A DNA stretch of 32,720 nucleotides from Guptibacillus hwajinpoensis (lineage in GTDB: Bacteria > Bacillota > Bacilli > Bacillales > Bacillaceae_J): positions 1-32,720 of the forward strand of contig JAENZK010000006.1 in the NCBI GenBank assembly GCA_016841285.1. The letters are read 5' to 3'. The notes below the pieces were generated by a model, which did not search any database, was not told the DNA's origin, and saw nothing but the letters and a program-made list of their open reading frames with translations. The position numbers were made by a program, and so were the translations under genes. How positions within the stretch are numbered: position 1 is the stretch's first letter; each line of letters starts with the position of its first letter. This document shows positions 8,158-17,591 of this stretch, piece after piece.

Positions 8158-8183
8158 GCCGGAGTTCCCGACCCTCTGGCCCA
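8158..8183 (+). repeat. Hairpin repeat copy 3
   Basis: GCCGGAGTTCCCGACCCTCTGGCCCA; a degenerate partial copy precedes it (~8139-8152). Confidence 0.9.
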
Positions 8184-9330: not shown

Positions 9331-9356
9331 GCCAGAGAACCCGACCCTCTGTCTCG
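9331..9356 (+). repeat. Hairpin repeat copy 6
   Basis: GCCAGAGAACCCGACCCTCTGTCTCG. Confidence 0.9.
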
Positions 9357-9928: not shown

Positions 9929-9950
9929 GACAGAGGGTCGGGAAGTCTGG
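9929..9950 (-). repeat. Hairpin repeat copy 7 (only inverted copy)
   Basis: Reverse complement CCAGACTTCCCGACCCTCTGTC. Confidence 0.9.
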
Positions 9951-9981
9951 TTCAACAAGCCAGACTTCCCGACCCTCTGTC
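9929..9981. repeat. Perfect 22-bp inverted repeat made of two head-to-head hairpin-repeat copies
   Basis: GACAGAGGGTCGGGAAGTCTGG (9929-9950) / CCAGACTTCCCGACCCTCTGTC (9960-9981) with 9-nt spacer TTCAACAAG. Confidence 0.95.
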
Positions 9982-9984: not shown

Positions 9985-10068
9985 CTAGCATTGTTGGGAT
10001 AAAATAATTAATAAAAGGGAATCATACAACAGTGTTTATTAATGATACATTGGAAAGGAGAATTTCAC

Positions 10069-10569
10069 ATGCCACAAGGAGCTACTGAAACAAGCACCTT
10101 AAAAGTTGGTGATCCGGCACCGGATTTCACTTTAAATGCACATGGGAATCGTACCATTACATTAAGTGACTACCATGGATCAAAAAATGTATTTCTTTGT
10201 TTTTATCCCTTAGATTGGACCCCTGTCTGAGGCGCGCAAATGCCTTCATACGAGGATGATTTATCCCGTTTTGAAGAGTTTGATACCCAGGTCTTGGGTA
10301 TTTCAGTTGATAGCGTCCCTAGTCATGAAGCATGGCAAAAATCAATTGGGGGTATTTCTTACCCGCTTCTTTCCGATTTTTACCCACATGGAGAAGTTGC
10401 GGAAAAATATGGTGTTCTTCGCAAAAACAAAAACGATCCACCATATGGTGCAACAGAGCGTGCCCTCTTTATCATTGATAAAGAAGGCATCGTTAAGTGG
10501 ATAGATGTCCACCCGATTGGTAAGCAACCTGATAATGAAGAATTATTTGATGTTTTGCGGAAACTTTAA
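10069..10569 (+). CDS. Selenocysteine-containing peroxiredoxin (AhpC/TSA, Bcp-like), UGA at 10228-10230 read as Sec
   Basis: ORFs 10042..10230 and 10240..10569 are in the same frame and joined only by TGA: ...NVFLCFYPLDWTPV-U-GAQMPSYEDDL... The UGA sits exactly where peroxiredoxins carry the peroxidatic Cys (TPVC). ATG 10069 has AAAGGAG RBS. bSECIS-like hairpin follows. Confidence 0.9.
10251..10268 (+). promoter_or_regulatory. Candidate bacterial SECIS element (peroxiredoxin)
   Basis: CG[A]GGAU-GAUUU-AUCC-CG: 6 bp with one bulged A, 5-nt apical loop starting with G; 27 nt between UGA and loop. Confidence 0.7.
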
Positions 10570-10607
10570 GTAGATTCCTTAGTAGAAAGAAAATAAGGAG
10601 GCCGTGT

Positions 10608-11309
10608 ATGGAACTATCAAGAAAAGCTATCCCATATACACCTAGCAGTAAACCACTGCATGAAATGACCATTATGATTGTTTCAACTTCCGGCGTCCAT
10701 CTGAAGGATCAGGAACCTTTTCACACAGATCCCACTAAAGGAGATGCGACCTTCCGCATCATTCCAGGGGATGTTGATTCAAAGGATTTAATGGTAACTC
10801 ATGCAGCTCCAAAGGAACATTATAATACGGATGCTCCGAATGAGGATATTAACTGCGTTTTCCCGATCGATCGCCTGCGAGAAATGGTAGATGATGGAGA
10901 CCTTGGCGGCGTAGCTGAAAAGCATCTAACGATGATGGGCTACTCTATGAGATTAGCTAAAATTAATAATGAAACTATTCCTGCACTCGTAAAAGAAGTA
11001 GTTCGATCCAAAGCGGATGCAGTCATTTTAACGGCAGGCTGACCACTCTGTCATCGCACTGTAGTTACAGTGCAGCGTGGCATTGAATCACAGGGAATTC
11101 CAACTACATTAATTACCTTGGACGTTGAACAATCGGGCTTGATGAGGCCCCCACGGGCTATCCATCCAGTAGGGTTCGAATTCGGACATTCTTTAGGAAA
11201 GCCACATGATAAAGCAACCCAAACGAAAGTGCTAACGGCCGCTCTTGAAGAACTAAATGTAAAACAAGAGCCAGGGAACATTCATGATGTCAATTTTCCA
11301 ACTTACTAA
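10608..11309 (+). CDS. Selenoprotein of the glycine/sarcosine/betaine/D-proline reductase selenoprotein B (GrdB/PrdB) superfamily, UGA at 11040-11042 read as Sec
   Basis: ORFs 10608..11042 and 11070..11309 are in the same frame. Read-through gives ADAVILTAG-U-PLC-HRTVVTVQRGIESQGIPTTLITLDVEQSGLMRPPRAIHPVGFEFGHSLGKP, i.e. a UxxC redox motif. RBS AAGGAGG before ATG; SECIS-like hairpin follows the UGA. Confidence 0.88.
11056..11073 (+). promoter_or_regulatory. Candidate bacterial SECIS element (GrdB/PrdB-like gene)
   Basis: GCACUGU-AGUU-ACAGUGC: perfect 7-bp stem, 4-nt loop with G at second position; 20 nt between UGA and loop. Confidence 0.82.
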
Positions 11310-11331
11310 TGATTTATAAAAGAAAAAAATG

Positions 11332-11365
11332 GGCATGAGTTTCGTTACTACAGCGGACTCATGCC
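11332..11365 (+). terminator. Terminator-like hairpin after the selenoprotein pair
   Basis: GGCATGAGT...ACTCATGCC followed by a short T-rich tract. Confidence 0.55.
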
Positions 11366-11383
11366 TTTCAGTTAAGGAAAAAA

Positions 11384-12778: not shown

Positions 12779-12804
12779 GCCAGAGTTCCCGACCCTCTGG
12801 CCTG
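12779..12804 (+). repeat. Hairpin repeat copy 10
   Basis: GCCAGAGTTCCCGACCCTCTGGCCTG; 5 nt from a stop codon. Confidence 0.9.
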
Positions 12805-13743: not shown

Positions 13744-13769
13744 GCCAGACTTCCCGACCCTCTGGCCCA
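13744..13769 (+). repeat. Hairpin repeat copy 11
   Basis: GCCAGACTTCCCGACCCTCTGGCCCA. Confidence 0.9.
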
Positions 13770-17565: not shown

Positions 17566-17591
17566 GCCAGACTACCCGACCCTCTGGCCCA
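17566..17591 (+). repeat. Hairpin repeat copy 15
   Basis: GCCAGACTACCCGACCCTCTGGCCCA. Confidence 0.9.

Follow-up and report, generated by a model that had tools for sequence, protein, structure and literature searches.

Two adjacent genes in the window, the 32,720-nt stretch of Guptibacillus hwajinpoensis DNA analysed here, are genuine selenoprotein genes, encoding an AhpE-like peroxiredoxin (Prx) and a PrdB-like protein with a UxxC motif, and their pairing is real and old. Both proteins belong to known families, here in a pairing that we have not found described, and a new role is proposed for the PrdB-like protein. It may act as the dedicated redox partner of the one-Sec Prx, the two forming one functional unit, a reading whose chance we rate as somewhat below even.

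Layout of the gene pair and its two UGA codons

The features of the pair are the following, all on the + strand.

9997..10022 (region 9994-10027), +: promoter-like motif, GGATAA-N14-GGGAAT, ~40 nt 5' of the Prx start
10052..10060, +: RBS of the Prx gene, GGAAAGGAG, by sequence inspection; similar in relatives
10069..10569, +: AhpE-like Prx gene, 166 aa (UGA decoded as Sec); PF00578 E 2.5e-39
10228..10230, +: UGA codon 54 (Sec), peroxidatic position, TPVUGAQM; TGA in 13/13 orthologues, all 24 paired Prx with U or C in this column
10251..10268, +: SECIS-like hairpin of the Prx gene, from synonymous suppression; weaker in this genome than in relatives
10595..10601, +: RBS of the PrdB-like gene, AAGGAGG, by sequence inspection
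10608..11309, +: PrdB-like selenoprotein gene, 233 aa (UGA decoded as Sec); PF07355 32.5 bits, TIGR04483 159 bits
11040..11042, +: UGA codon 145 (Sec), UPLC motif; TGA in 13/13, U or C in 52/52 followed by Cys148 in 52/52
11056..11073, +: SECIS-like hairpin of the PrdB-like gene, 7 bp with an AGUU loop, from folding and synonymous suppression
11331..11366, +: hairpin 3' of the operon, terminator-like but with a weak run of Ts; -19.9 kcal/mol, z = -5.0 vs shuffles

The two genes lie on the same strand with a gap of 38 nt and RBS-like sequences precede both ATGs, just as the sequence-only reading had described. That reading had also placed a terminator-like hairpin 3' of the pair. The hairpin is indeed stable, but it is followed by TTTC only and does not appear in a terminator scan; it is thus terminator-like and not a proven terminator. 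Most of 28 Bacilli loci have, ~40 nt 5' of the start of Prx, a promoter-like motif of the form GGnTAA-N14-G..(G)ATAaT; the version in the window resembles a sigma-B-type promoter. No PerR-type box was found by eye upstream of the operon, and a scan of the window against Rfam at gathering level gave no match. The window further contains a dispersed intergenic repeat with the core CCCGACCCTCTGTC (9 matches vs 0.04 expected), located at 661-706, 8167-8180, 9340-9353, 9929-9981, 12788-12801, 13753-13766 and 17575-17588; two copies form an inverted pair immediately 5' of the operon.

Sequencing error or pseudogenisation had been judged very unlikely from the two UGAs, and this judgement was borne out. 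Each gene has exactly one in-frame TGA, at codon 54 of the Prx gene and codon 145 of the PrdB-like gene. The 13 orthologues of each gene all keep the TGA at the catalytic position and have no further in-frame stop, and protein-level conservation runs on past the TGA in both genes. Nothing was found that would favour an artefact of either kind, and this explanation is refuted, with practically no chance left to it.

In the 13 codons past the TGA, synonymous change was 0.24 in the PrdB-like gene and 0.23 in the Prx gene, compared with 0.49 and 0.42 gene-wide, respectively, and these windows rank among the lowest of each gene. Such an approximate halving is expected of an overlapping SECIS element. 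The PrdB-like hairpin was paired in all sequences and invariant except for one pair with one two-sided change; since the helix hardly varies, its covariation was not significant in the shuffle control (93/500). In the Prx hairpin, 94% of cells were paired and there was no covariation. Conservation of the hairpin is thus clear in the PrdB-like gene and weaker in Prx. As neither hairpin is significant by covariation, the evidence for the SECIS elements consists of synonymous suppression and folding. The genome encodes SelA (E 1e-146) and a tRNA-Sec (58.9 bits, cut-off 47), together with a SelB-like C-terminal half that scores below the cut-off; the search for full-length SelB was uninformative.

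Conservation of the pairing across phyla

In the Bacillales, a PrdB-like gene of the paired clade was found in 13 genomes (82-100% identity), and in 13/13 cases it lies after a Sec-Prx gene on the same strand, with a gap of 11-136 nt. A wider scan used alignment A3 and two conserved peptides on GTDB, with one genome for each species, and the best 80 loci were kept; with this number of loci and the two-peptide query, the size of the paired clade is a lower bound. Among the matches listed, 47 of the 53 members of the clade have a Prx gene in the locus. The Prx gene is upstream on the same strand in 39 of these 47 linked loci (within ~300 nt in 38 cases and at 2.8 kb in one), downstream in four, likewise on the same strand, and convergent in another four, two of which are separated by 1.4-1.5 kb. 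The three gene arrangements indicate that the link between Prx and PrdB-like has survived rearrangement. Three Ktedonobacter genomes without the adjacency carry Prx elsewhere, one of them ~110 kb away, and the remaining three unlinked loci of the clade are contigs of MAGs, one of which is cut at the gene. The two genes, read at the outset as one system, are therefore a conserved pair both in the order and in the wider clade, and an operon-like arrangement in most relatives is supported.

The paired clade spans Bacilli, Ktedonobacteria, Methylomirabilota, Terriglobia and Planctomycetota (taxon labels of MAGs as deposited) and is fully supported on the tree. Every Prx-paired row of the tree falls inside this one PrdB-like clade, and the sampled rows outside it are all unpaired (48/48). 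The pairing label changes four times on the PrdB-like tree, compared with approximately 29 times in shuffles. The genes flanking the pair vary between genera, and no third operon member is conserved across phyla; in particular, no transporter, pyruvoyl subunit or substrate gene is conserved next to the pair, nor is a further selenoprotein gene. A mobile element was also considered and rejected, as there was no phage match and the plasmid matches were to true prdB only (38-40%).

The two genes might move as a unit for no other reason than their common need for the Sec machinery. The distribution of the pair is patchy enough for such a selenium cassette (13/349 genomes of the order, and absence from three other genomes of the window's genus), and SelA is present in 13/13 paired genomes. 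However, SelA-positive genomes are far commoner than the pair, and, as noted, it has no further conserved selenoprotein gene as a neighbour. The cassette is further weakened by the six Cys/Cys pairs that remain linked, which argue against a mere cassette, and we consider it very unlikely.

Among the matches listed, the 47 linked pairs comprise 34 with Sec in both proteins, six with Cys in both, six with Prx-Cys and PrdB-Sec, and one with Prx-Sec and PrdB-Cys. The raw counts, again among the matches listed, give a significant association of the two states (Fisher p 0.0005). On the tree, Prx changes its state once and PrdB-like five times, which leaves one independent contrast, so that the raw association is not evidence of co-variation. 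The co-variation of Cys and Sec that had been put forward as a check on the pair is hence not demonstrable.

The two proteins and their possible relationship

The sequence-only reading called the second protein GrdB-like, and this name had to be revised. NCBIfam PrdB (TIGR04483) matches along its whole length with 159.3 bits, whereas GrdB (TIGR01917) gives 51 bits; the protein is thus closer to PrdB, although both scores are below the curated cut-offs of 300 and 602. PF07355 (GRDB) is matched above its gathering threshold (32.5 vs 22 bits), over profile positions 212-346 of 347 only. With PrdB as its best NCBIfam match and true PrdB proteins 38-40% identical to it, the protein could be taken for a subunit of D-proline or glycine reductase. 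This is contradicted by the score below the family cut-off, by the absence of PrdA from 13/13 paired genomes (the control genome G020 was positive), by the absence of GrdA from the window's genome and 9/10 other paired genomes, and by the position of PrdA-linked PrdB outside the paired clade on the tree. The reductase-subunit explanation is refuted for the window's genome to the extent that its assembly, 96.6% complete, allows, and is scarcely credible in general. The control genome, a member of the Bacillales, encodes PrdA and a PrdB of the Cys form in a D-proline reductase cluster (L083 / L084, G020:C41).

The PrdB-like protein has the redox motif UPLC (Sec145-Pro-Leu-Cys148), in which C148 and position 145, with U or C, do not vary among 52 PrdB-like proteins. 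D46, D80, E160 and R183 are invariant across all sampled PrdB-like subfamilies, the unpaired ones and true PrdB included, and R50, H65 and N82 are nearly so. From this pattern of conservation, a small-molecule active site seems to fit better than a plain electron carrier. The predicted fold is confident (mean pLDDT 93.5, pTM 0.92), and in this model Sec145 sits between a strand and a long helix. A Foldseek search of the model against the PDB gave nothing significant, thioredoxin-like proteins included (best E 0.015, TM below 0.5), and sequence searches found no credible relative in the PDB; there was none among viral structures either; the PrdB superfamily thus seems to be without a solved structure in the copy searched.

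Several other PrdB-like genes were encountered. A second PrdB-like selenoprotein group in the Bacillales, 32-41% identical and without Prx, includes L064, L065, L073, L077, L079 and others; among its neighbours are a selA-like gene at L073 and, at L064, an ABC transporter with an SBP_bac_8 binding protein, as well as genes resembling the TVP38, rhodanese and mercuric-reductase families. The PrdB-like gene of L074 (G124) has two in-frame TGAs and UPIU instead of UPIC, a candidate double-Sec motif. Homologues in two Acidobacteria MAGs (L150, L160) have Asp at the Sec/Cys position and are for this reason probably without redox chemistry.

The Prx belongs to the AhpC/TSA family, and the closest solved structures are those of M. 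tuberculosis AhpE (E 2.5e-31). An alignment of 24 divergent paired Prx has a single conserved Cys position, the catalytic U/C column. Judged from these alignments, the protein is an AhpE-type one-Sec Prx without a conserved resolving Cys, and such an enzyme needs a thiol or selenol from outside. M. tuberculosis AhpE is a one-Cys Prx, the sulfenic acid of which has been reported to be reducible directly by mycoredoxin-1 (PMC4360819).

A sister Sec-Prx with 70-76% identity is encoded immediately 3' of a glutaredoxin-thioredoxin reductase (Grx-TrxR) fusion gene, with the Pfam domains Glutaredoxin and Pyr_redox_2, in 8/8 loci of the order. The window's genome has one Prx of each kind, the second Sec-Prx (G000:C479:10064-10543, loci L056 and L189) being ~72-75% identical and located directly downstream of a Grx-TrxR fusion. 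The same arrangement of fusion and downstream Sec-Prx was seen at more loci in the class. A search from the Prx side, through scans of the order and the class, yielded 46 loci, of which 23 have a PrdB-like neighbour (including L178, a partial match) and 15 a Grx-TrxR fusion, together 38/46; one has a lone Grx as its neighbour, and seven have neither partner within 1.5 kb. At L176 and L186, a lone glutaredoxin gene adjoins Prx and PrdB-like together. On the Prx tree, a branch (90/99) separates the Grx-TrxR group from the rest; the outgroup Prx had been located via their PrdB-like neighbours, so that PrdB-like cannot be claimed as the older partner.

A one-Sec Prx next to a Grx-TrxR fusion fits the AhpE/mycoredoxin-1 pattern, and by analogy the UxxC protein, which is placed likewise, suggests an equivalent role for PrdB-like. 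In the proposed mechanism, the selenol of the AhpE-type Prx would reduce a hydroperoxide and be converted to a selenenic acid. The PrdB-like protein would then supply the thiol or selenol for Prx, Sec145-Pro-Leu-Cys148 would take up the oxidising equivalents as a selenenylsulfide, and the PrdB-like protein might be re-reduced by the thioredoxin or bacillithiol pool of the cell. This is in line with PrdB itself, where a Cys has been proposed to resolve the Sec after its attack on the substrate, giving a mixed selenide-sulphide that an exchange reaction recycles (PMC3091704). What we infer in this scheme is the direction in which electrons flow, the contact between the two proteins, the peroxide that serves as substrate, and the identity of the last electron donor. 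The redox-partner reading draws on the conserved catalytic UGAs, the pairing across phyla, the missing resolving Cys, the invariant (U/C)xxC and the missing PrdA; a peroxide/thiol role of the pair, suggested by the sequence-only reading, is plausible in this light.

The main rival is that the two are parallel enzymes, with a pathway and a promoter in common but not electrons. The PrdB-like protein would attack a small electrophile or peroxide via its selenolate, as GrdB and PrdB do, and Prx would be a co-regulated second defence enzyme. The residues shared with true PrdB (D46, D80, E160, R183) point in this direction, and so does the chemistry reported for the superfamily. In PrdB, the alpha carbon of proline has been proposed as the target of the Sec (PMC3091704); the title of a study cited in that paper is 'Peroxidase activity of selenoprotein GrdB'; and a GrdB-like protein has been proposed to cleave fluoroacetate (PMC10838667). 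The glutaredoxin gene beside both genes at L176 and L186 indicates that PrdB-like does not simply replace Grx, and the seven Sec-Prx loci without a partner within 1.5 kb indicate that Prx can work without an adjacent one. The absence of a PDB match to the predicted fold, thioredoxin-like proteins included, also weighs against the electron-donor reading. Nevertheless, parallel action leaves unexplained the tie between one specific Prx subfamily and this clade alone, when many others have these residues too, and the lack of a conserved transporter, pyruvoyl subunit or substrate gene beside the pair is also against it. Since the invariant residues and the Grx beside both genes are the main counter-evidence, we advance the electron-donor reading only as a tentative preference, and parallel enzymes are a serious contender that we hold to be distinctly less than evenly probable.

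It is also conceivable that the Sec of the PrdB-like protein is sensitive to oxidation and that Prx keeps its surroundings free of peroxide. The adjacency of the genes and their operon-like order in most loci would suit such protection, and an unrelated PrdB-like reaction would explain the conserved residues. However, the Cys/Cys pairs in the Ktedonobacteria are still linked although the Sec-specific need is gone there, and other PrdB-like selenoproteins have no Prx neighbour; this explanation is thus unlikely.

In its broad form, the redox-partner reading implies that the PrdB/GrdB superfamily, whose known role to date is amino-acid reduction in anaerobes, includes a clade that has turned into a dedicated selenol-thiol reductase of one-Sec/one-Cys Prx, giving a peroxide-detoxifying couple in at least five phyla. 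We regard this extension as rather doubtful, but if it is true, peroxiredoxins would have a class of reductase distinct from thioredoxin, glutaredoxin, AhpF and AhpD. The outside reductant on which one-Cys Prx depend is often unknown, and the conserved pair offers a concrete, testable answer. The reading would also correct the misleading annotation of PrdB-like selenoproteins, which are abundant in surveys and named after an enzyme that they cannot form without PrdA.

Comparison with known systems

AhpE of Mycobacterium tuberculosis is the closest Prx of solved structure and is likewise without a resolving Cys; however, it has Cys where the window Prx has Sec, and the neighbour of the window Prx is a PrdB-like gene. 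PrdB (TIGR04483), the Sec subunit of D-proline reductase, shares with the PrdB-like protein a length of ~240 aa, collinearity over residues 10-225, a UxxC at the same place and 38-40% identity. The PrdB-like protein differs in scoring below the family cut-off, in a genome without PrdA, in having a Prx neighbour instead, and in forming its own clade. GrdB (PF07355), the Sec subunit of glycine/betaine/sarcosine reductase, aligns in the C-terminal part of the profile; the match is limited to positions 212-346, and the window's genome is without GrdA.

The two families have been met before as separate selenoproteins. Two marine surveys, GOS (PMC2398784) and Sargasso Sea (PMC1088965), count both Sec-PrdB and Sec-Prx among the abundant selenoprotein families, with the same UxxC and TxxU motifs, but a gene pair of the two does not appear in the parts consulted. 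The sequence-only reading had put the system forward as a candidate undescribed one. No mention of the pair was found in the literature examined, the coverage of which was partial, so that the pair is likely but not certain to be new. A 2026 review of selenoprotein operons lists prx with selW-like, prx-like with ahpD-like, grdA-grdB, prdB-prdC, SAO and Tso (PMC13188914). The present pair resembles these in that co-located selenoprotein genes are taken to act together, but the combination of Prx and PrdB-like is absent from that list.
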